NCBI GenBank assembly: GCA_016841955.1
Contig: JAENYE010000006.1
Location: 1-64,000 of the forward strand
Direction of reading: 5' to 3'
DNA length: 64,000 nucleotides
Origin: Methanobacteriota archaeon
Lineage (GTDB): Archaea > Halobacteriota > Methanomicrobia > Methanomicrobiales > Methanoculleaceae
In this document: positions 8,981 through 21,268 of the stretch, one piece after another
Layout: every line of letters starts with the position of its first letter
How positions within the stretch are numbered: position 1 is the stretch's first letter
The notes under the pieces: generated by a model
What the model was told of the DNA's origin: nothing
The model's input: the letters and a program-made list of their open reading frames with translations, nothing else
Database searches by the model: none
Position numbers and translations under genes: made by a program

Positions 8981-9342
8981 CATTTTTTGGCTCTGTTGAA
9001 ACCCTATCCTGATCTTCATCCTTACCCTGATGAGGCTGGTGCCGGACTAGGCTTGTCCTTGGGACGACCTTTCTTCTCGGGCATGTCCTCATACAGTGGA
9101 CCGTGGTGGCTATCGCCATTGGGGGTGGGGCTGACGTGGAGGGGGAGACCCCCTCCCCTGTCTCTAACTCGCGAAAATCCGCATGCCTCATCGACCCCAC
9201 CCCACCCGGCCTCCGGCCTCCTCCCCCGCCCTAGGGGCGGGGGCAGTCATGGCGATACTTGGTAGAAAGCCGTGCCCCTGAGTACCCCCTGATTGTGGCC
9301 ATCTGGAACAAACAGGTGGGGTTTCAACAAAGCCCATTTTTC
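8981..9342. mobile_element. Small non-autonomous TIR element with 8-bp target duplication
   Basis: Terminal inverted repeats ggctctgttgaaaccc (8989-9004) and gggtttcaacaaagcc (9319-9334) match at 15 of 16 positions. They are flanked by catttttt (8981-8988) and catttttc (9335-9342), a likely 8-bp target duplication with one mismatch. The 346-bp interior has no full transposase. On the minus strand, codons reading PEKKGRPKDKPSPAP followed by a stop may be the tail of a lost transposase or other gene. TIR sequence and duplication size resemble the IS6-like group, an inference only. It also contains one copy of the hairpin repeat. Confidence 0.65.
9093..9265 (+). repeat. Hairpin repeat family, copy A
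   Basis: It starts with agtggaccgtgg and ctatcgcc, followed by a G-rich then C-rich stretch, and ends near atggcgatact. The start matches the other three copies at 30388, 33747 (reverse) and 36474. The interior folds on itself: gagggggagaccccctc near 9138 and gcccta ggggc near 9229. It is the most diverged copy and lies inside the TIR element. Confidence 0.6.
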
Positions 9343-9367
9343 AATAGATTGTATATTGTTATGGTGT

Positions 9368-9408
9368 CACAGGGAGCAACCTGCGATCTCTTGCTACTGT
9401 TGCCTGTG
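9368..9408 (-). terminator. Hairpin downstream of the retron RT gene
   Basis: The arms cacagg (9368-9373) and cctgtg (9403-9408), extended inside by gcaac (9376-9380) and gttgc (9399-9403), form a bulged hairpin about 40 bases past the RT stop codon. It could end the retron transcript or stabilise its 3' end. No oligo-T run follows directly on the minus strand. Confidence 0.35.
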
Positions 9409-9446
9409 GCAGAAATGTCTATTGTAAATGTTATTATTGGAGTTCC

Positions 9447-11171
9447 TTAATCTTCTTTGCCCCCAGCCCCTACTTTGCCTGGTTGAGCTTCAATGATGAG
9501 ACTGTTCGCGTCAAGTGAATCTGCAACCTGCTGCATCCCATGAGTTTTTTTGCGAAAATTCGAATAAATTCTCATGAAGTCTCTTTGTGTTATGAAACAG
9601 TAGCACTTTTTAGATTGACATTCGTGTATAGCAGTATTAAGACGTGAACGTAGTCCAACATCGATATCTGAAGTAGTGACGGTTGTAACCACATTTATTC
9701 CACTACTATGGCAGACATCAAAGAATTGTCGGAAGTATGTGTCTTTTTGGGTTCTAGCTTCCAGTTTGGTTTTTATTATAAAGCAAACATGACACCCGCT
9801 TTTTCCTAATATTGTTTCATTGATACCTATATCACACACCTCGTGACCGTGATGGGTGCCACCTGTTTTACCAATATAATGGCCCAAAATAAATTTGATG
9901 CATTTATTATAATTCGGATCATCTTTCCTGAACAAACAGACTTTGCATTCTTCATTTGTAGGATGCTGTTTACACTTTTCTTGTAATGTGGTAAGATCTT
10001 CAAGGGAAAATTGTTCCATGGATAGAGGAGGGATGTCTCTGAACGAGCTCAATTTTTCAAATGGAAGTATTCTATTAACAAATGGACTTCTCGATAACGA
10101 TCTGATGTTAGTTTCGGTTTCTTTTAAGTTTCTAATGTTATTATCATACTCTGACCAGTCGATAGAGTGAAAGGCTTCTTTCAAAGTGTTTCCAAATTCG
10201 GGTTCTACATTAATTACATACGATATATACCCCAATAATCTTTCTTTAAAGAAGGGATCATTGATTCTGTTTTCTTTTACTGGCCCATTCTTCTTGATGT
10301 TATATAATATTGCTCGAAGTTTTCGTTTCTTATCTTTCCCTACGCTAAGATGTGAATTAACAACAATACCTGTAACCTTTTGGCAAGAACCTTGTGATAA
10401 CACTCGGGTTTTCTCTGGGTTCACCTCAAACCCATGTTGGGTGATTTTTTTAATTATAATGTTTTTGTATTTGGGCAATCTATTACTCCCCGATATGGTT
10501 ATATCATCCGCGTATCGAGAGTAATCCAAATTTCTTGCCTTACAAAATTTGGCAATTTTTTGATCCATTTGCCAAGCGATTAAATTAGATAGCATAGGGC
10601 TGGTAGGCGCACCCTGCGTTAACCTCATTCGGTAAGTACAGAGTTCTGCTAAATCTAGAGAAATTTGCTCATTATACCCCAACGAGTGAAAATAACCTTT
10701 AACTCGATTTAATTTTATACTTGGAAAAAAGTCCTTCAAGTCGATGCACAAGATACACTCTTTATTGATATGATTGGCTGCATTAGTGACTATAGATCGA
10801 TTAGGTACAAATCCATGTGCATATTTCCCTGCGTTCAGTTGTACCAATATATTTTTGTGAATCCATCTTTGGACTTTCTTTAAAGGTTTCGATGGAGCAT
10901 CAATTCTTCTAAGCTTACCGTTCTTTTTAGGAATCTCAAACGAGGAGTAAGCGCTTTTTTTATTCCTAATGAAAAATCTCAGTTGACTAGATGATGCTCC
11001 ACACAACTCGGATAGATGAATCAGATCAAAAATATAAGGAAGATCTTTACGTTTCAACCGCTTAAGGGCCTGAGTTTCGGTATCAATTACTTCTTCGTAA
11101 TTTATATCGTCCCTTTGCTTAAGATAGTCAACCAACTGAGAATGGTTGTAAATACTGCAGGCTTGCTCCAT
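9447..11171 (-). CDS. Retron reverse transcriptase with Cys-rich C-terminal domain
   Basis: A 574-residue protein. Residues about 75-330 are a reverse transcriptase: RT1 around GKLRRIDAP, CIDLKDFFPSI with the first catalytic Asp (144), QGAPTSP (186-192) and YADD (220-223). The two retron hallmarks are present: NAxxH as NAANH (130-134) and VTG (266-268). Residues about 390-574 form an extra domain with clustered cysteines (400, 409, 412, 424, 446, 460, 463) and a stretch VCDIGIN...CFIIKTK that could be a restriction-endonuclease-like core; this is inference. It would copy the RNA encoded just upstream into msDNA, probably for phage defence, with the C-terminal domain as likely effector since no separate accessory gene is adjacent. 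The gene is AT-rich against GC-rich neighbours, pointing to transfer. Confidence 0.9.
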   Translation of the reverse strand: MEQACSIYNHSQLVDYLKQRDDINYEEVIDTETQALKRLKRKDLPYIFDLIHLSELCGASSSQLRFFIRNKKSAYSSFEIPKKNGKLRRIDAPSKPLKKVQRWIHKNILVQLNAGKYAHGFVPNRSIVTNAANHINKECILCIDLKDFFPSIKLNRVKGYFHSLGYNEQISLDLAELCTYRMRLTQGAPTSPMLSNLIAWQMDQKIAKFCKARNLDYSRYADDITISGSNRLPKYKNIIIKKITQHGFEVNPEKTRVLSQGSCQKVTGIVVNSHLSVGKDKKRKLRAILYNIKKNGPVKENRINDPFFKERLLGYISYVINVEPEFGNTLKEAFHSIDWSEYDNNIRNLKETETNIRSLSRSPFVNRILPFEKLSSFRDIPPLSMEQFSLEDLTTLQEKCKQHPTNEECKVCLFRKDDPNYNKCIKFILGHYIGKTGGTHHGHEVCDIGINETILGKSGCHVCFIIKTKLEARTQKDTYFRQFFDVCHSSGINVVTTVTTSDIDVGLRSRLNTAIHECQSKKCYCFITQRDFMRIYSNFRKKTHGMQQVADSLDANSLIIEAQPGKVGAGGKED

Positions 11172-11180
11172 GGTATCAGA

Positions 11181-11343
11181 AAATTGGAGTCCCCCTTGCT
11201 AAACGTGAAGCGTTTTCACAGCGCACGCGTGCGCTGCGGAAAGGGTTCATGTTTACATTTGCCTACTATTACATTTGCACAGCGTAGCACCGCACATCTA
11301 TTGGTTTGGGCCAATAGCATTAAATCCAAGGGTGACTCCATTT
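11181..11343 (-). ncRNA. Retron msr-msd non-coding RNA
   Basis: About 163 bases directly before the RT start. The ends form the a1/a2 pair expected for a retron: on the plus strand aaattggagtcccccttg (11181-11198) and caagggtgactccattt (11327-11343) are inverted once transcribed, reading a1 AAATGGAGTCACCCTTG and a2 CAAGGGGGACTCCAATTT. Inside are a perfect 7-bp hairpin (11298-11317, ctattgg/ccaatag), fitting an msr stem-loop, and near the 3' end a 16-bp palindrome (11219-11234) plus a small gtgaa/ttcac hairpin, fitting an msd. The branching G would follow a1. Exact RNA and DNA ends are not determinable by eye. Confidence 0.75.
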
Positions 11344-11361
11344 GCCCCTTTTAAATTTAGA

Positions 11362-11372
11362 CTAAATATATG
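11362..11372 (-). promoter_or_regulatory. TATA box of the retron
   Basis: The minus strand reads catatatttag, centred about 25 bases before 11343, the first base of the a1 repeat. Box and RNA start match the archaeal TATA-to-start distance, so the RNA and the RT are probably one transcript beginning at a1. Confidence 0.6.
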
Positions 11373-11465
11373 TTGCGTTTTTGTTGGCTAACGCTCTATA
11401 CCCGAGTTATCCTAACTAGAGGGCTTAGGTACGACCTCTTAAGGAATTTGCCTGTATTTTTCTGA

Positions 11466-12236
11466 CTATGGTAAATGCACCTTATTACTCCGGCTGATCT
11501 TCTTCATCACCTTCTCCCAGGAACCCGTTATGAGGAAACTCTCCTCCATAAAGCCGATAACCCTCTCGAACTTCTTCATGGGGAAGGCCATCGTCAGGAC
11601 GTCCAGAGGGACGCATGGCCGTGCCGAGGGGTCGAACATCCCGAGCACCGCTTTCGGGTTCTCGTTCTGCTGCTCGAGCCAGGGGAAGTAAAAGACCGAG
11701 CTGCACCCGGCACCGAACGGGCAGACGACACCGTTCGGGTCGGCCTGGTCGAAGTTTGCAAGCGTGAAGAGGCCGGAGAGCACTTCGGGCCGGGCGAAGA
11801 AGACCACGGCGTCAGGGTTATCTCTGTCCGTGAGATGGTCCCAGCGCTTGAAGACGATGCTCTTTCCCTTCGTGGGTATCCGGGCGGTTCCTTGGTCGAG
11901 TTCGTCCACGATCTCCGGCGTCTGCTTGTAGCGCTCCCCCTCCATGACTCCGGGCTTCCCGTAGGAGAGGAAGTAGCGGAAGTCGGGGAACCGTTCGGCG
12001 TCGTAGCCGAGGTAGAACCTCCCCCCGCGGCACCCGATCGAGTCCTCGTCGAAGACGAGGCTCGCCCCTTTCCTCACCTTCACGAGGTCGCAGACGAAGC
12101 ACCTCCAGCCCTTCGGGGCGGGAGCTTTCTCCACCCCAACGGTCGCGCCCCCGACCTCGAAGGCGATCGGGAGTTCCGTCCCCGGGAAGTACTTCTCATG
12201 GAGCCGGATGTAGGCGTCGCGCAGTGCTGTGTCCAT
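11466..12236 (-). CDS. DUF169 family protein
   Basis: A 256-residue soluble protein of the DUF169 family common in methanogens. Typical features are the Cys-rich first half (WRCFVCDLV, SIGCRGGRFYLGY), a central RPEVLSGLFTLANFD, and the GCSSVFYFPW segment. Biochemical function is not established. It ends just upstream of the AT-rich retron island in the same direction, so the island boundary lies at about 11440-11466. A second, diverged DUF169 gene is at 62655. Start at the ATG at 12236. Confidence 0.85.
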   Translation of the reverse strand: MDTALRDAYIRLHEKYFPGTELPIAFEVGGATVGVEKAPAPKGWRCFVCDLVKVRKGASLVFDEDSIGCRGGRFYLGYDAERFPDFRYFLSYGKPGVMEGERYKQTPEIVDELDQGTARIPTKGKSIVFKRWDHLTDRDNPDAVVFFARPEVLSGLFTLANFDQADPNGVVCPFGAGCSSVFYFPWLEQQNENPKAVLGMFDPSARPCVPLDVLTMAFPMKKFERVIGFMEESFLITGSWEKVMKKISRSNKVHLP

Positions 12237-12402
12237 ATGACCCTGTTCCGGGGCGGCGGGGATTAAGATTCTGATCCGCTTCCCGGGTGGAGCGCGTGCA
12301 GCCAGCGGCCGTTCGCTGGTTCGTCCGGGTAGAGGGGTGCGGATGGGAGGATACCCGGCTGCCGGGCGTCACACATGGGCCGGTTTGGCGGGAAGAATCG
12401 AA

Positions 12403-12434
12403 ATGTTGATATTGTCAACCCGAGATTGTTGACG
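12403..12434 (+). promoter_or_regulatory. Dyad operator upstream of the DUF1673 operon regulator
   Basis: gttga and tcaac arms with a 5-bp spacer (12405-12419) form a perfect dyad, and a further half-site gttgac follows at 12428-12433, ending two bases before the ATG at 12436. The position over the start suggests a repressor site, plausibly autoregulation by the helix-turn-helix protein encoded next. Confidence 0.45.
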
Positions 12435-12435
12435 T

Positions 12436-12882
12436 ATGCCACTCCCCCTGAACGACAGGCAGTTTGCGTTCTGGAAGCTCCGCCGCAGCGGCCTCCCCAA
12501 CATCCGTATCGCAGACCGCTTCAGCATATCCCGCCAGGCGGTCTCGAAGGCGCTGCTTGCCATGGACCGGAAGGTCGAGGAGACGCTCCTTGAGATGGCG
12601 CAGGCGAACCAGATCGACGTCGAGCGCTTGAACGCGGAGAAAGGGGTTCTCTTTGGGCGTTCCGTCCCGTTCGATGCGGCTGCCGTCGTCTTCGTATCGG
12701 CAGATCGCGGGGTGCAGGTCTGGTACGAGCACGAGGGCGACTGCGGCGCATGCCCCCGGTATACCCGGTGCATCGAGCTCCTCTGGGGCTATGCTGACGA
12801 GCTGGGTATCGCGCTTACGAAGACCGACGACCCGACACGGATGGCCGATGAACTCTTCGCGAAACTGAGGGAACTCGTATGA
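12436..12882 (+). CDS. Helix-turn-helix regulator with CxxCxxxxxC motif
   Basis: A 148-residue protein. Residues about 5-45 form a helix-turn-helix of the sigma-region-4/Tfx kind (SGLPNIRIADRFSISRQAVS). The middle has a helical, possibly dimerising segment, and residues about 101-112 contain CGACPRYTRC, a possible metal or redox site. It is the first gene of an operon: its stop overlaps the next ATG by four bases. Probably a DNA-binding regulator of the DUF1673 genes that follow. A dyad over its start suggests autoregulation (inference). Confidence 0.8.
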   Translation: MPLPLNDRQFAFWKLRRSGLPNIRIADRFSISRQAVSKALLAMDRKVEETLLEMAQANQIDVERLNAEKGVLFGRSVPFDAAAVVFVSADRGVQVWYEHEGDCGACPRYTRCIELLWGYADELGIALTKTDDPTRMADELFAKLRELV

Positions 12883-13505
12883 TGCCTCTCATGGAGACGA
12901 TACGGGCGTACCTGGGCTGGTGCCCCCTGAAGGGGTCGATGCAGCCGGACCTGCCGGTGCGGCCGGGAACGACCGCGGCACCGGGCGGGCGGGACGGGCT
13001 CCTCCGGACCGAGCCCGGGTGGTGGAACCGCCACCACAACCAGCTGCTGGTCGCGGCGGTGGTCGCCTCGGCGGCGGCAGCGGCACTCTTTATCCTGATC
13101 GAGGACGTTTCAGGGTATCCGGCCGTCTGGATCGGCCTCGCCATGGGGGCAGCATCCACTCTCGGCTCTCTGCTCAGCTATCGGGAGCGGTATGCGCGGG
13201 TTGCCGCCGGCGAGTTTGTCAGGGCCAACATGACCCGGAGACAGCGCATCGTCAGGTACCTGAGGCTGCCGGTGGCTTCCGCTATCGTCATCGCCTGTAT
13301 GGCGTATTTTGTCCTGGGCGGCATGTCCGGCCAGATCCTCGGGTTCATACTGAGCTTGCCCCTCATCTTCTGGATCTGGTACGGTGCTACGATCCTGTGG
13401 GAGCGGCAGCACCGCACAACCCTGATAGCAGAGATTGGGTCGATGTATGTCCTGGGTACGGCGACGCAGGGCGAGCACGGCGGGGAGGAGCCCGTATGGC
13501 GATGA
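12879..13505 (+). CDS. DUF1673 membrane protein 1
   Basis: A 208-residue protein opening with METIRAYLGWCPL, the GWCP signature of the methanogen-specific DUF1673 family. After a Pro/Gly-rich spacer come two pairs of hydrophobic helices (about residues 64-100 and 128-168), so it is an integral membrane protein. The ATG overlaps the stop of the regulator gene (ATGA). Function unknown. It is the first of four consecutive family members in this operon, which have diverged strongly except at the N-terminal GWCP box. Confidence 0.75.
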   Translation: MMPLMETIRAYLGWCPLKGSMQPDLPVRPGTTAAPGGRDGLLRTEPGWWNRHHNQLLVAAVVASAAAAALFILIEDVSGYPAVWIGLAMGAASTLGSLLSYRERYARVAAGEFVRANMTRRQRIVRYLRLPVASAIVIACMAYFVLGGMSGQILGFILSLPLIFWIWYGATILWERQHRTTLIAEIGSMYVLGTATQGEHGGEEPVWR

Positions 13506-14197
13506 AGTTCTCCGAGGCGATACAGAGGATGGTGGGCTGGTGCCCGAACGCAGCAATGGCCGGAACCGGCCGGCGGCGGTATGCCGCTCCGGACGGCGAG
13601 GTCGGACTCGGGACGGCGGCAGGCGGCGAACGGGAAGTGGTGGAGGGTGTACTTGTGGATTACGGCTCAATCGGCACTCCGGCAACATATTTCATTCTGC
13701 TTGTTGCCGTCGCTCTTTTCGTCGGATGCTTCTTCGTTATGTTACCTGCAGTGGGCCTTCTTGTGCTGGCTATCATACTGGCTTACGCCGGTATGGAGTT
13801 GTACGGGGTCATGCGAAGGGCCTGTGTCGAGATCTCTTCGGACACGATTACCATCACGCGGCCGCTTTTTTGGCCTATCGTCATCCCGAAGGATGCCGTC
13901 GTGAAGGTGGAGGTGCGGGAGAACAAACTCACTACCCCCTACTGGCTCCTCGCGGCGGCAATGGCGATGATTTTCGTATCGGCGGCCGGCAGTATATACT
14001 ATGGATTGGATAATCCGGCCTCCATGCGATTTATTTCCGGACTTGGCGCCGCGATCTTTTTCCCCATGATCTCCTACCGTACCTATGCACGGACACATTA
14101 CCCGCGAATCCTGGCGATAACGACCGCGGAGAAGAAGATTGCTGCTATCTATACGGAAGACCCCGAACAGATTGCCCGGGTGCTGGAGGTTTCCTGA
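13496..14197 (+). CDS. DUF1673 membrane protein 2
   Basis: A 233-residue protein starting MAMKFSEAIQRMVGWCPN. The N-terminal 50 residues are nearly the same as in the fourth family gene of this operon (14673). Two helical pairs (about 62-98 and 142-180) flank a beta-rich stretch (CVEISSDTITITRPL), which resembles a membrane-bound PH-like domain. Start at 13496, 10 bases inside the preceding gene; an alternative ATG is at 13502. Function unknown. Confidence 0.75.
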   Translation: MAMKFSEAIQRMVGWCPNAAMAGTGRRRYAAPDGEVGLGTAAGGEREVVEGVLVDYGSIGTPATYFILLVAVALFVGCFFVMLPAVGLLVLAIILAYAGMELYGVMRRACVEISSDTITITRPLFWPIVIPKDAVVKVEVRENKLTTPYWLLAAAMAMIFVSAAGSIYYGLDNPASMRFISGLGAAIFFPMISYRTYARTHYPRILAITTAEKKIAAIYTEDPEQIARVLEVS

Positions 14198-14676
14198 TGA
14201 CGGTATTTCTGGAGTATATCAGGAAGAAGCTCGGGTGGTGCCCGAACGCTGACGCCATCAAACCTGTCCAGCGCACGAGCACGGAAGCGGGCTACGAAAG
14301 CGCCTGGAAGGGAAGGAGCCCGGAACCAAACCCCGGCCGGGAATCGGCCGGTACAGCAGGTGGAGATGAGAGCGGCTACAAGGATAACATGCTGCTGATC
14401 CTCCTTGCCCTGGCCTGGCTCTTCCCGGTCGTGTACCAGCGGGAGTTTCTCCCGCTCCTCGTCGTCCTGAGCGCCGTCGCCATGTATTATGACGCACAGA
14501 GTATCCGTGCCGGGAGCAACTTCGAGAAGGAGACGCTGCTTGGGGATATCGTCACCTGGCAGCCGATAACGTGGGGAGCGGCGACGCTCGTTGGCGGGAT
14601 CATCATCATGGCAATCTACCTCTTCCACCGAAGAGAGATCTACCGCGCAAACTTCGGCGGGGAGGCATCCGCATGA
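14197..14676 (+). CDS. DUF1673 membrane protein 3
   Basis: A 159-residue protein beginning MTVFLEYIRKKLGWCPN, again with the GWCPN box. A hydrophilic linker (about 20-60) precedes two or three hydrophobic segments (about 65-95 and 118-138). It is the shortest of the four paralogs. Its ATG shares a base with the stop of the previous gene and its own stop overlaps the next ATG, so translation is probably coupled across the operon. Function unknown. Confidence 0.75.
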   Translation: MTVFLEYIRKKLGWCPNADAIKPVQRTSTEAGYESAWKGRSPEPNPGRESAGTAGGDESGYKDNMLLILLALAWLFPVVYQREFLPLLVVLSAVAMYYDAQSIRAGSNFEKETLLGDIVTWQPITWGAATLVGGIIIMAIYLFHRREIYRANFGGEASA

Positions 14677-15419
14677 CGATGAAGTTCTCCGAGGCGATAC
14701 AGAGGATGGTGGGCTGGTGTCCGAACGCGGCAGCCCTCGGCACCGGCCGGCGGCGGTATGCCGTGCCGGACGGCGAGGTCGGGATCGGGACGGCGGCCGG
14801 CGGCAGCCGGGAGGTGGTGGAGGACGTATTCGTGGATTACGCCAGCCCTCGTTTCATACCTCTGATGCCGTTTGCCTTCCTTGGGTTCTTCATACTCTTC
14901 GTGGTATCCCTCCTGATCCCCTCCTTGTGGCCTGGGCTCATCTATACCCTCCTGGCCGTCTCCTTTATAGCTTGGGCCGCACTGCGCCTCTATCTCGATC
15001 CCTATCGAACTGTGATAGAGTCCTGCGGGAATTCCGTCATCGTCCGAAGATCGCGTACCCGGCCGCTCGTCTTCGGAAAGGACACGATCAGATCGGTCGA
15101 GGTGAAAGATGCCGATCGTCCCGTGCCCCGCTGGGTGTCCGTGCCGCTCTGGCTTCTCACGGTTGCGGTGATACTCTTCGTCACCGTAGGGGAAGAGTTG
15201 ATGCGGTATCCGGGCGGCCAGGCCGTCTACCCCGATTTCGGCTTTCAGGCTCTCTTAGCGGCCGGCTGGATGGTGTTTATGCTGGAGTTGCTCTATCGTT
15301 CCCTGGTCAGTCTGCAGTATCGCGGCTACCTCAGGGTAAGGCCGGGGTCCGGGGGTTACCTCCACGTCTACACGGATGACCCGGACAGGCTTGCCGCGCT
15401 GTTCGACGCCCCGCAATGA
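14673..15419 (+). CDS. DUF1673 membrane protein 4
   Basis: A 248-residue protein starting MTMKFSEAIQRMVGWCPN. Its first 50 or so residues, and the underlying DNA, are close to those of the gene at 13496, including the RRRYA-PDGEVG stretch, which shows a duplication within the operon. Two helical pairs flank a beta-rich segment with RSRTRPLVFGKDTIRSVEV. The ATG overlaps the previous stop by four bases. It is the last gene of the five-gene operon. Function unknown. Confidence 0.75.
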   Translation: MTMKFSEAIQRMVGWCPNAAALGTGRRRYAVPDGEVGIGTAAGGSREVVEDVFVDYASPRFIPLMPFAFLGFFILFVVSLLIPSLWPGLIYTLLAVSFIAWAALRLYLDPYRTVIESCGNSVIVRRSRTRPLVFGKDTIRSVEVKDADRPVPRWVSVPLWLLTVAVILFVTVGEELMRYPGGQAVYPDFGFQALLAAGWMVFMLELLYRSLVSLQYRGYLRVRPGSGGYLHVYTDDPDRLAALFDAPQ

Positions 15420-15526
15420 CAAAGCGTACCTTTTGAAGGCAACAACCCAATATACACAGTGGCGACATTCGATGGACCTCCATACCGAATACACTCCCAT
15501 AAACCCGATCCGACGGAGCAGCCGGA

Positions 15527-16345
15527 ATGACCGATAGCAGCGCCGACGCTCAAAAGTCCTCCCCGCCCCTGCTCGAGTTTGAGAACGTCAGCGTCGTCAG
15601 GGAAGGCCGGAAGCTCCTCGACTCGGTATCGCTCACGGTCCGCGAGGGGGAGCATATCGCTCTCCTCGGGCCGAACGGTGCCGGAAAATCGTCGCTCATC
15701 CGGACGATCGCCCGGGATTACTACCCCTCCTGCCGGGGATCGGACGTCACCTTCAGGTTCCGGGGACTGGACCGGTGGGACGCCTTCGACCTGCGGTCCC
15801 ACCTCGGTGTCGTCTCCGGCGACCTCCAGCACACCTTCACCCGCGGGATATCGGCCCGCGAGGTCGTGCTCTCGGGGTTCTTCTCGAGTGTCGGGCTCTT
15901 CCTCTCCCACGAAGTGACCCCCGCGATGGAGCAGAAGGCCGACGAGATCCTCGAGTTCCTCGAGGTCGCTCACCTCGCGGACCGCCCGATGACCGGGATC
16001 TCCTCGGGCGAGGCACGCAGGATCCTGATCGGGAGGGCGCTGGTCCACGACCCGGGCACCCTTGTCCTCGACGAACCCACGAACAGCCTTGATTTGCACG
16101 CGCTCCACACCTTTCGAAAGACACTCCGGAAGATCGCACGGTCGGGCACCGGCATCATCCTCGTGACCCATAACCTCCACGACATCATCCCGGAGATCTC
16201 CCGGGTCATCCTCATGCGGGACGGCGCCGTCCGGATGGACGGCGAAAAGGCGGAGGTGCTGACCGACGAAGCCGTCGGCGGGCTCTTCCGCGTCCCGGTC
16301 CGCGTCCGGGAGGAGGACGGCTACTACTACGCGACGGGCTACTGA
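15527..16345 (+). CDS. Stand-alone ABC transporter ATP-binding protein
   Basis: A 272-residue ATPase with Walker A GPNGAGKSS (about residues 47-55), signature ISSGEARR instead of LSGGQ, Walker B LVLDEPTNSLD and a switch His in VTHNLHD. The overall pattern is that of import-type or ModF-like ATPases. No permease or binding-protein gene is adjacent, so it either joins a permease encoded elsewhere or acts as a soluble ABC protein. Upstream is the end of the DUF1673 operon, 107 bases away. The ATG at 15527 follows a purine-rich cggagcagccgga. Confidence 0.85.
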   Translation: MTDSSADAQKSSPPLLEFENVSVVREGRKLLDSVSLTVREGEHIALLGPNGAGKSSLIRTIARDYYPSCRGSDVTFRFRGLDRWDAFDLRSHLGVVSGDLQHTFTRGISAREVVLSGFFSSVGLFLSHEVTPAMEQKADEILEFLEVAHLADRPMTGISSGEARRILIGRALVHDPGTLVLDEPTNSLDLHALHTFRKTLRKIARSGTGIILVTHNLHDIIPEISRVILMRDGAVRMDGEKAEVLTDEAVGGLFRVPVRVREEDGYYYATGY

Positions 16346-16736
16346 ACGCCCCTCGCATTCCGCTGTTTTTCGATCGACATAACGTTTATGGCCGGTGACG
16401 ATCCCCCTGCCCGCTCATACCCGTGACATCTCCGTGCAGGGGATGGGGAACCTGAGAGAGGGAGAGAAGGAATGGTCGAGATTGGCTCCAAACTCTTCAC
16501 CGAGGCGGCACAGCGCGTCCGAACTGGTGAAAAACGCGAGACTGGCGGAGGACGCCGGGTTCTCGTTTTTGTAGTCCCTGCCCGTCGGAGCGGCCCTTCC
16601 CGTGATTGGGATGTCCGGGCCGGCAGAGCACGGAAGGAAGTGCGGAAACCGCTGGGATGGCTTGAGAAAAGGGAGGCGGGGTGTTTTCCCCGAGGCTCCT
16701 CATTCGCGAATGGGCGACGGCCGACGTGAGATATCG
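16346..16736. other. Intergenic region, weak small ORF only
   Basis: A T-run (ctgtttttcg, about 16362) may end the ABC gene transcript. A plus-strand frame at 16472-16729 has a fair ribosome-binding site (gagagaagga) but an Arg/Gly-rich, low-complexity product typical of chance frames in GC-rich DNA. Nothing else recognised. Confidence 0.4.
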
Positions 16737-18789: not shown

Positions 18790-18960
18790 ATGTTTGATTT
18801 ACACGGCCGCCATTCGGCCGTGACGGCGCATCGTCGGGTAGCGGTATCCGCCCCGATGCCCGGTGCCTCCTGTTTTCCCATGGTGTCCGGAGGACTGTCT
18901 GTCGACGCAAGGGGCAGGCAATCGTTCTCGGGGAACCGGTCTACTCCGAGAGGAGCGTGA
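18790..18960 (+). CDS. Possible small protein with strong expression signals, 56 aa
   Basis: A 57-codon frame beginning MFDLHGRHSAV. It has a TATA-like ggtataagaa (18741-18750) and a strong ribosome-binding site ggagg (18778-18782) eight bases before the ATG. The product has no recognisable motif and is Arg/Gly/Ser-rich, so it may be a chance frame or the 5' stump of a lost gene. It overlaps the 3' end of pfkA on the other strand by 20 bases. Confidence 0.3.
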   Translation: MFDLHGRHSAVTAHRRVAVSAPMPGASCFPMVSGGLSVDARGRQSFSGNRSTPRGA

Positions 18961-19912
18961 ATATCCGCCGTAAGTTCTTATCAAGCGGTTTCTTCTTCTG
19001 CCAGGTATCTTCAAGCGGCGTGCACGTGAGGTCTCCGCCGACCTCTCCCACCATGCACCCGCTCCGGCCCTCGATCAGCGCCTCGACGGCGGCAACACCG
19101 AGGAGGCTCCCGAGCACCCGGTCGCGCAGCGTCGGGGGCCCACCCCGCTGGAGGTGCCCGAGGACGACGACGCGGGAGTCGAAGTCAAGGTGCTCTCCGA
19201 CCTCACGGGCGATCCGGAAGGAGATGCCCGGCGTCTCTCCCTCCGCCACCACCACGATCGCGCTCTTCTTCCCGATGGTAAACCCCTCGCGTATGCGCTC
19301 GCTGAGCCGGGCCATCGAAACCTCTTCTTCCGGGATGACCAGTTCCTCGGCGCCGCCGGCGATGCCGCTCTCGAGCGCCAGGAACCCGGCCGTGCGCCCC
19401 ATCACCTCGATGAAGAAGAGGCGCTCGTGGGACCGGGCCGTGTCGCGGATGCGGTCGATCGCCTGGACCGCACAGTTCGCCGCCGTATCAAACCCGATGC
19501 AGTAGTCGGTCCCGTAGACGTCGTTGTCGATGCTCCCCGGCACTCCCACGAGCGCCGCCGTATCCGCGTCGGCGGCAAGCATGGTTGCACCGTGGAATGT
19601 TCCCTCGCCCCCGATCAGGACGACGCCGTCAAGCTTCAGCCGCTCGATAGCCGCCGCCGCCTTGAGCCTCCCTTCCCTGGTGTAGAACTCCGGGTTCCGG
19701 GAGGTCTCAAGGATGGTACCGCCCAGGTGGATGATGTTCCGGATAGCCGTCCGGTCGAGCGGCACCGCGTCGCCGCCGATGAGCCCGGTATACCCCCGGC
19801 GTATCCCGACGATGGTGAGGTTGTTTGCAAGCGCGGTGCGCACCGCCGCCCTGATGCAGGCGTTCATGCCCGGGGCGTCACCGCCGCTCGTCAGGATGCC
19901 GATGCGCCTCAT
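18941..19912 (-). CDS. pfkA: ATP-type 6-phosphofructokinase, bacterial PfkA family
   Basis: A 323-residue phosphofructokinase that phosphorylates fructose 6-phosphate to the 1,6-bisphosphate. SGGDAPGMN (10-18) forms the nucleotide site and PGSIDND (125-131) carries the catalytic Asp. GGEGT (101-105) has Gly where PPi-dependent enzymes have Asp, and PGSIDND has Gly where they have Lys, so ATP is the predicted donor. Length matches bacterial PfkA. Many methanogens use ADP-dependent PFK instead. It overlaps the end of pgk by four bases (ATGA), so the two are translationally coupled. Bacterial origin by transfer is inferred. Confidence 0.92.
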   Translation of the reverse strand: MRRIGILTSGGDAPGMNACIRAAVRTALANNLTIVGIRRGYTGLIGGDAVPLDRTAIRNIIHLGGTILETSRNPEFYTREGRLKAAAAIERLKLDGVVLIGGEGTFHGATMLAADADTAALVGVPGSIDNDVYGTDYCIGFDTAANCAVQAIDRIRDTARSHERLFFIEVMGRTAGFLALESGIAGGAEELVIPEEEVSMARLSERIREGFTIGKKSAIVVVAEGETPGISFRIAREVGEHLDFDSRVVVLGHLQRGGPPTLRDRVLGSLLGVAAVEALIEGRSGCMVGEVGGDLTCTPLEDTWQKKKPLDKNLRRIFTLLSE

Positions 19913-21120
19913 GGTGTCCCTGCATCATCGAGCGCCATGACACCCGGGAGCGGCTTTCCCGAAAGCATCGTCAGCGCGGCCCCGCCGCCCGTCGAGACAT
20001 GGGTCATCTGGTCGGCAAGCCCGAACCGTTCCACCGCATCCGTGGTCGAACCGCCGCCGATAACCGTGGTGCCCCGGAGGTTGGCGAGAACCGCGGCGAC
20101 CCGGCGCGTCCCCTCCGCAAACTCCGGGATCTCAAAGACACCCATCGGCCCGTTCCAGACGACGGTTCGCGAACTCGCAAGTTCGTGAGAGAAATCGTCG
20201 GCAGCCCCGGGTCCGATATCCGCAATGACCCGGCCATCCGGGATCTCTGTGGCAGGCACAACCCGGGTCGGGATGCCCGTTTCCAGCCTCTCCGCGACGA
20301 CGACGTCCCGGGGCAGGAGGAGGCGGACGCCGCGTTTCGTTGCCTTCGCGGAGATCTCCCTGACGGCGTCCAGGCGGTCGGTCTCGACGTGCGATGCGCC
20401 GGTCCCGTACCCCTGGCTCGCAAGGAACGTCGCCGCCATGCCTCCGCCGATGATGAGGGTGTTCACCCGGGAGATGATGTTCTCGAGGACCTCCAGTTTG
20501 TCGCTCACCTTGGCCCCGCCGATCACGGCGGCAAACGGCCGTTCGGGGTCTTCCAGGATGCGCGTAAATGTGCCGATCTCCCTCTCCAGCAGGAGCCCGG
20601 CCACCGCCGGCAGATACTCCGGGACGCCCACAACCGACGCATGGACCCGGTGGGAGGCACCGAAGGCGTCGTTGACGTAGATCTCCGCGAGGCTGGCGAG
20701 TTTCTCCGCAAAGGCGGGTTCGTCTTTCTTCTCCTCCGGGTGGAACCGAAGGTTCTCGAGGAGAACGATATCCCCGCCGCTCATCTCCGCTACCGCGCTC
20801 TCCACCTCCGGCCCGACGCAGTCCCGGAGCGCGACGACCGGCCAGCCGAGCAGTGCGGAGAGCCGGTTTGCCACGAGGGTGAGGCGTAACCGCTCTACGA
20901 CCCTGCCCTGCGGCCGGCCCAGGTGGGAGCAGAGGATGACACGTGCGTCCCGCTCGCAGAGGTAGCGTATCGTCGGCAGGCTGGCCCTGATGCGGGTATC
21001 TTCGGCGATGGCGCCGTCTTCGTCGAGCGGCACGTTGAAATCGGCACGGACGAGCACCCGCTTACCCCTCACATCGATCTCCCGTATGGTCTTCTTCCGT
21101 CTTGGTATCACGTTCTGCAT
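19909..21120 (-). CDS. pgk: Phosphoglycerate kinase
   Basis: A 403-residue glycolytic/gluconeogenic kinase interconverting 1,3-bisphosphoglycerate and 3-phosphoglycerate with ADP/ATP. The family sequences are clear: VLVRADFNVPLDEDG near the N-terminus, CSHLGRPQG, LLENLRFHPEE, NDAFGASHR, VIGGAKVSDKLEV, WNGPMGVFE and the terminal GGGSTTDAV with STGGGA. The ATG at 21120 fits family length; a frame extending to 21258 would add non-conserved residues and start upstream of the predicted transcript start. First gene of the pgk-pfkA operon. Its compact form and close pairing with pfkA look bacterial. Confidence 0.93.
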   Translation of the reverse strand: MQNVIPRRKKTIREIDVRGKRVLVRADFNVPLDEDGAIAEDTRIRASLPTIRYLCERDARVILCSHLGRPQGRVVERLRLTLVANRLSALLGWPVVALRDCVGPEVESAVAEMSGGDIVLLENLRFHPEEKKDEPAFAEKLASLAEIYVNDAFGASHRVHASVVGVPEYLPAVAGLLLEREIGTFTRILEDPERPFAAVIGGAKVSDKLEVLENIISRVNTLIIGGGMAATFLASQGYGTGASHVETDRLDAVREISAKATKRGVRLLLPRDVVVAERLETGIPTRVVPATEIPDGRVIADIGPGAADDFSHELASSRTVVWNGPMGVFEIPEFAEGTRRVAAVLANLRGTTVIGGGSTTDAVERFGLADQMTHVSTGGGAALTMLSGKPLPGVMALDDAGTP

Positions 21121-21268
21121 ACCGGCATACCCCCGGAGCAGTGACGAACGACAGGGCTTCTTTGCCGTGACCAGGGTGTGTGGGCGGGCTGCACCTTCCT
21201 GTCCGGCTCCCTGCTGTCTTCCGGCCGTTCCCCACTGAATTACGGTGCTCCAGTGCATGCGTACCCGG

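Follow-up and report, generated by a model that had tools for sequence, protein, structure and literature searches.

Coordinated variation of a putative repressor, its operator and a short leader on membrane proteins suggests an undescribed link between the membrane and gene control in methane-making archaea

The operon described here appears to encode an autorepressor that is read out, by docking or titration, by the membrane proteins encoded behind it, all of which carry the same short leader at their N-termini; on this reading, to which we give a probability of about 0.5, the system would work like the SdpR/SdpI pair of Bacillus. The parts of the reading differ in strength. The operon, the operator, the leader and the matching of leader, regulator and operator are established from the sequences, whereas repression, docking, the direction of the switch and a protective role are inferred. 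That the first gene product is a local autoregulator of a tagged set of membrane proteins is very probable, and direct docking of the leader to the regulator stands at about even odds; these gradings, like the low one given below to a broader proposal, are matters of judgement. The operon lies in a stretch of 64,000 nucleotides (the window) from a genome whose nearest named relatives belong to Methanoculleus, and the regulator/operator/leader system to which it belongs is undescribed in the literature searched.

The operon extends from position 12436 to 15419 of the plus strand and consists of five same-strand genes without gaps (Table 1), each overlapping the next, by 4, 10 (or 4), 1 and 4 bases from gene 1 to gene 5, with 13496 and 13502 equally possible as the start of gene C. 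The original prediction, which had described a five-gene operon with overlaps at every junction and two paralogs sharing a nearly identical N-terminus, was correct on these points: genes C and E run for their first 40 bases without a mismatch (from 13502 and 14679, at a shared ATGAAG), beyond which identity drops. Its further suggestion, that the set forms a dedicated membrane system of an undescribed kind served by its own regulator, gains support from the recurrence of the arrangement in the window's order and in other methanogens of the phylum; the papers searched name only the family and its MGWCP motif. Its description of the set as four DUF1673 proteins survives in part. Against the cut-off of 30.4 bits for DUF1673 (PF07895), B (33.9) and E (33.8) score above and C (27.0) and D (26.1) below, and gene D aligns to positions 1-37 of the profile only, i.e., to the leader. 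The description is misleading because the common element, as judged from the sequences, is not DUF1673 itself; it is a short leader, consisting of a helix and a GWCP tip, that is fused to different bodies at the N-terminus of the last four gene products (B to E).

Table 1. Positions of the operon genes and associated sequence elements within the window
Feature	Position	Strand	Remarks
TATA-like element TTGATATT	12406..12413	+	directly 5' of operator
Putative operator, class I near-palindrome GTCAACCCGAGATTGTTGAC	12414..12433	+	2 nt before start codon
Tfx/EnfR-like HTH regulator (gene 1)	12436..12882	+	148 aa; HTH about residues 7-57
Cys103-x2-Cys106-x5-Cys112 of regulator	12742..12771	+	in 143/143 orthologues
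Leader-tagged membrane protein B (gene 2)	12879..13505	+	208 aa; DUF1673 body, 33.9 bits
GWCP tip, gene B leader	12915..12926	+	
Leader-tagged membrane protein C (gene 3)	13496..14197	+	233 aa (or 231 aa from 13502); body family shared with E
GWCP tip, gene C leader	13535..13546	+	
Leader-tagged small membrane protein D (gene 4)	14197..14676	+	159 aa; resembles DUF1673 by leader only
GWCP tip, gene D leader	14233..14244	+	
Leader-tagged membrane protein E (gene 5)	14673..15419	+	248 aa; PH-like domain predicted, interrupted by two transmembrane hairpins; leader predicted cytosolic
GWCP tip, gene E leader	14712..14723	+	

An ABC ATPase gene (15527-16345, plus strand; best NCBIfam match ModF, below cut-off), which in most relatives within the genus is found ~90-110 bp 3' of the last leader gene, is a possible functional partner and was left out of the system because it is without a leader and lies beyond a gap. 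No Rfam family was matched within positions 9000-16500 of the window. None of the regulator, gene E and the DUF169 protein is covered by a PADLOC model, and identity with a known anti-phage system is therefore not supported. On the minus strand, positions 9447-11171 encode a retron-type reverse transcriptase, here found in a methanogen, that has additional C-terminal sequence and no Rfam match nearby; it scores 267 bits with the retron_St85 model (cut-off 235) and 349 bits with PADLOC RT_III-A. Farther along the same strand, a PfkA-like phosphofructokinase ORF (18941-19912) overlaps the end of a phosphoglycerate-kinase-like ORF (19909-21258), as read by eye; the two are possibly a sugar-metabolism pair.

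The regulator is present in 84 of the 199 genomes of the window's order and, by profile search, in 71 of 392 genomes of the phylum. Stretches around the matches were fetched for 146 regulators, three of which were partial and were dropped; the remaining 143 full-length proteins are those of the loci with G handles plus the window, L031-L035 being excluded as duplicates of the same genome regions under second ids. C103, C106 and C112 are invariant in all 143, and after 136 of them the next gene, mostly at a spacing of -4 or -1, opens with the leader; as many as 12 leader genes may follow a single regulator. The other seven lack a leader by pattern in the first gene: two (L158 and L207) end at contig ends, two have variant tips (GRCP in L068, LWCP in L182), and three intact regulators (L193, L235 at 601, and L241) have no recognisable leader gene adjoining them. 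As a true member of the Tfx family the regulator was rejected, at 13.1 bits against a TIGR00721 cut-off of 60.25, and we file it as Tfx-like: the Tfx model matches 23 of 27 relatives at E up to 0.1 (best 7.1e-6), and the SdpR model matches three of the 27, with a best E of only 0.059. SdpR is of the ArsR type, and the window regulator, having no ArsR-type Pfam match, is not assigned to the SdpR/SdpI system. Structure models of the regulator and of gene E were built on shallow alignments (6 and 13 rows) and are of low confidence (mean pLDDT 57.4 and 56.5), and Foldseek returned no match at E 0.001 for either, so that only topology and the second-look list were used, and cautiously. The EnfR structures 8hno/8hnp take four of the top five rows for the regulator model, as weak matches with E of 0.2-0.5; the Tfx/EnfR fold itself is marked by a flag, a stem helix and an alpha+beta note-head, in an X-shaped dimer.

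Immediately before the regulator, the original prediction had placed a dyad over the first start, at 12403-12434; the dyad is real, and the conserved element within it is narrower, a 20-mer at 12414-12433 that ends 2 nt before the ATG. A near-palindrome ending at the regulator start was found in 140 of the 143 upstream regions, and in 135 of these 140 sites it ends 2 nt before the start codon; shuffled versions of the upstream sets yield 0.075 such sites on average. A TATA-like stretch lies within 12 nt of the operator at 139 of the 140 orthologous sites, the copy in the window being weaker than most. Within the 2.43-Mb genome, GTCAACN8GTTGAC occurs once only, at the window site. Among the matches listed for the 35 genomes of the genus there are 30 perfect class I sites, in 28 genomes; 29 stand 2 nt before a regulator or truncated regulator, the remaining site is no more than 6 nt from a regulator fragment, and none of those listed lies away from a regulator or fragment. 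At L258:2403, a class I operator precedes a degraded regulator start, shortly 5' of another regulator, and a secreted-type protein follows. The window's regulator likely binds its 20-mer operator, because the element is conserved and co-varies with the recognition helix, and an operator placed behind the TATA box and ahead of the start codon would suit a repressor.

Regulators, operators and leader tips fall into two matched classes. In class I the HTH reads ISRQAVS, the operator GTCAAY..RTTGAC and the leader tip GWCP, whereas in class II the corresponding elements are ITRQGVSQ, GTAAAY..RTTTAC and GLC[R/P]K. Mixed operators exist as well (18 of the form GTCAAY..RTTTAC and 7 of the form GTAAAY..RTTGAC, most in genomes outside the order), and a GTAAAY..RTTTAC-type site is found at three class I regulators, namely L193 (with otherwise class II features), L225 and L241. 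The class of the leader on the first gene equals that of the regulator in 136 of 136 cases. Over all genes the tips count 329 W and 6 L behind class I regulators, and 46 L and 1 F behind class II; one of the six L tips, the GLCP of gene 4 in L231, is a real exception, and the other five have the look of chance frames. Three families of bodies are represented under each class, and in these the tip fits the regulator in all 146 genes (56/56, 74/74 and 16/16). When trees of these bodies were built without the leader, from 56 of 59, 74 of 79 and 16 of 17 members (those with no clear leader and those beyond the length limits being left out), regulator class proved to change 3, 1 and 1 times, every time with the matching change of tip, i.e., five independent switches with one direction of agreement, for which a two-sided sign test by our own arithmetic gives only 0.06. 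The class-specific residues of the regulator include some in the recognition helix (32, 35 and 38) and some beside the Cys motif (107, 108, 115 and 116), among others. Class II regulators are acidic at 107/108 and class II leader tips are basic, which hints at a contact between regulator and leader; since the class II regulators look like one group, this link between residues and tip may rest on a single event.

Could the leader instead act as a signal for targeting or insertion, recognised by an unlinked factor such as a translocon, an insertase, a protease or a membrane domain, with the regulator acting only locally and the classes differing by inheritance of whole operons? We regard this as unlikely, though it is the most serious of the alternatives: the leader sits at the very N-terminus, preceding the first transmembrane segment, as such a signal might, and the class II regulators could represent a single ancient operon type. 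The distribution of leaders argues the other way. A leader profile gave 121 matches in 28 of the 35 genomes of the genus, of which 114 lie close to a regulator or a fragment of one and the other 7 are on regulator-less contigs of two fragmented assemblies (G142 and G157); of the seven genomes without a match, six have no regulator and one has a truncated regulator; and in 12 more distant genomes, picked for having the regulator, 61 of 61 matches lie inside regulator operons. Leaders are thus seen only in operons of the regulator, save for the seven on fragmentary contigs, and the tip has changed with the regulator in three body families. Both classes, moreover, can stand side by side in a single genome (L095, L167), and the targeting explanation therefore needs two unlinked readers.

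The identical 5' ends of genes C and E, the variable number of leader genes and the shuffling of leader and body combinations within the genus would all be expected if recombination between tandem genes had spread one 5' end across each operon, with no regulatory role for the leader. Such concerted evolution is improbable, because the same tip is found in distant genera and in one-gene operons, and because two gene D-type bodies from class II operons have retained a class I-like leader helix and differ at the tip, which is GLC; this argues against simple copying of whole leaders. The leader Cys, present in 376 of 376 aligned leaders, also points away from it, although by construction, because a leader match required the Cys.

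What follows the leader differs widely from protein to protein. Clustering of the proteins minus their leaders gave several unrelated groups. An earlier idea, with DUF1673 proteins as the sole followers of the regulator, was dropped. Pfam matches on leader-tagged proteins comprise SdpI (63.7 and 61.9 bits) with DUF1648, Yip1 (59.7), Polysacc_synt_3 (74.4), DUF6159 (45.7) and DUF1673; the operon of the window has no SdpI and no Yip1 among its proteins. DUF1673 itself was found in at least 66 of the 199 genomes of the order and at least 54 of the 392 of the phylum. An ordinary autoregulated operon, serving a membrane family specific to the lineage and involving no signals from client to regulator or back, would suit DUF1673 as a known expanded Methanosarcina family with an MGWCP motif and is very unlikely, the bodies not being one family and yet all bearing the leader. 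For the body shared by C and E, the low-confidence model of gene E has the topology strand-hairpin-four strands-hairpin-two strands-helix, the PH-like superfamily being marked by seven strands and a C-terminal helix, and the top rows of its second-look list are mostly PH, PTB and FERM domains, with Z reaching 10.4 over 99 residues; the body is predicted to be a membrane-embedded PH-like domain interrupted by two transmembrane hairpins. Most K and R of gene E are in even loops, and the leader should therefore face the cytosol. A polysaccharide flippase (Polysacc_synt_3, 74 bits) with a GWCP leader lies 3' of the regulator in a Methanosarcina-like genome (L229:1361-2974, plus strand). Leader-tagged proteins in L226, L237 and L222 resemble the soluble core of the oligosaccharyltransferase AglB, with Pfam matches, seen for L222, that are sub-threshold only, and contain a WWDYxD-like stretch that we take to be an AglB-type feature.

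Under the autorepressor reading, the gene 1 product would act as a Tfx/EnfR-like repressor: by occupying the palindrome that separates the TATA box from the gene's start codon, it would shut off its own operon. That operon would supply several membrane proteins with unrelated bodies, each showing the same leader, an amphipathic helix ending in GWCP, to the cytosol, where the regulator could read it as an address. Engagement or overproduction of a client would lead that client's leader to capture or release the regulator and so tune transcription, much as the autorepressor SdpR is captured by SdpI in Bacillus. The bodies (SdpI, PH-like, Yip1, flippase, DUF6159 and DUF1673) may protect or remodel the membrane, and the list of clients suggests a system that guards against membrane-active agents. 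A bolder proposal, which we consider a long shot, is a leader-addressed regulon in which acquiring the leader, of ~16 residues, makes any membrane protein a client whose state a dedicated repressor reads, the leader Cys and the three invariant Cys of the regulator form a four-cysteine metal site at the membrane, and a cell can hold two orthogonal sets of address, repressor and operator.

Distal operator sites bear on the reach of the regulator. Thirteen were read among the matches listed, in 15 fetched regions (a site in L253, beside an apparent regulator fragment at a contig end, being left out), and nine of them precede an untagged Yip1 gene, assigned by Pfam for one of the nine and by sequence likeness for the rest; the other four precede a putative lipoprotein (one), a secreted-type protein (one) or nothing clear (two). 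All nine Yip1 sites are in family f5 of the order (L245, L246, L247, L248, L249, L250, L251, L252 and L254). A target, therefore, need not carry the leader.

Several known systems share parts of this arrangement. The Bacillus sigma-W bacteriocin-resistance set (YfhL/SdpI, YdbST and YknWXYZ) contains the same kinds of protein, namely SdpI/YfhL, PH-like and Yip1, YdbS and YdbT being PH-like and YknW Yip1-like; the system described here differs in being archaeal, without a sigma factor and leader-tagged, and the likeness is one of protein kinds. Within that set, protection from SdpC comes from YfhLM and YknWXYZ, and protection from amylocyclicin from YdbST. In Bacillus subtilis, too, an autorepressor adjoins a polytopic membrane protein, SdpI, which sequesters SdpR at the membrane, and some of the tagged clients are SdpI proteins; here, in contrast, the regulator is Tfx-like, the clients are many and unrelated as opposed to one, and a short leader is their common element. 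EnfR of Thermococcus onnurineus, a Tfx repressor of solved structure, has as its binding site a pseudo-palindrome that spans -44 to +3 relative to the translation start. Our regulator has a similar length, an N-terminal sigma-4-like HTH and the weak full-length match to the EnfR structures noted above, whereas it falls far below the Tfx cut-off, has the Cys-x2-Cys-x5-Cys motif and precedes its own membrane operon as opposed to EnfR's codh cluster. DUF1673 (arCOG06827) is named in two papers, one of them giving the motif, and is described there, in one table row and one sentence, as a membrane family with an 'MGWCP motif' that is expanded in Methanosarcina. The leader is common to that family and our system, and for genes B and E so is the body profile above the cut-off; in the mentions of family and motif we found no tie to a regulator or operator, whereas in our system the motif belongs to a leader that is portable between several unrelated folds and linked to both. 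The published statements on DUF1673, on sequestration by SdpI, on EnfR binding and on protection by the sigma-W set come collectively from PMC4158269, PMC4390880, PMC8144471, PMC1626106, PMC10350532 and PMC10570040.

The joint change of putative repressor and tag suggests an undescribed link between the cell membrane and gene control in methane-making archaea. If the autorepressor reading is true, a short peptide carried by unrelated membrane proteins and changing with the repressor would constitute a modular coupling of the membrane to transcription, in a domain of life for which few routes from membrane events to transcription are known. A large family of genomic 'dark matter' would also become a system open to testing, its operator, regulator and peptide all being defined, and one that extends to the genetically tractable Methanosarcina.
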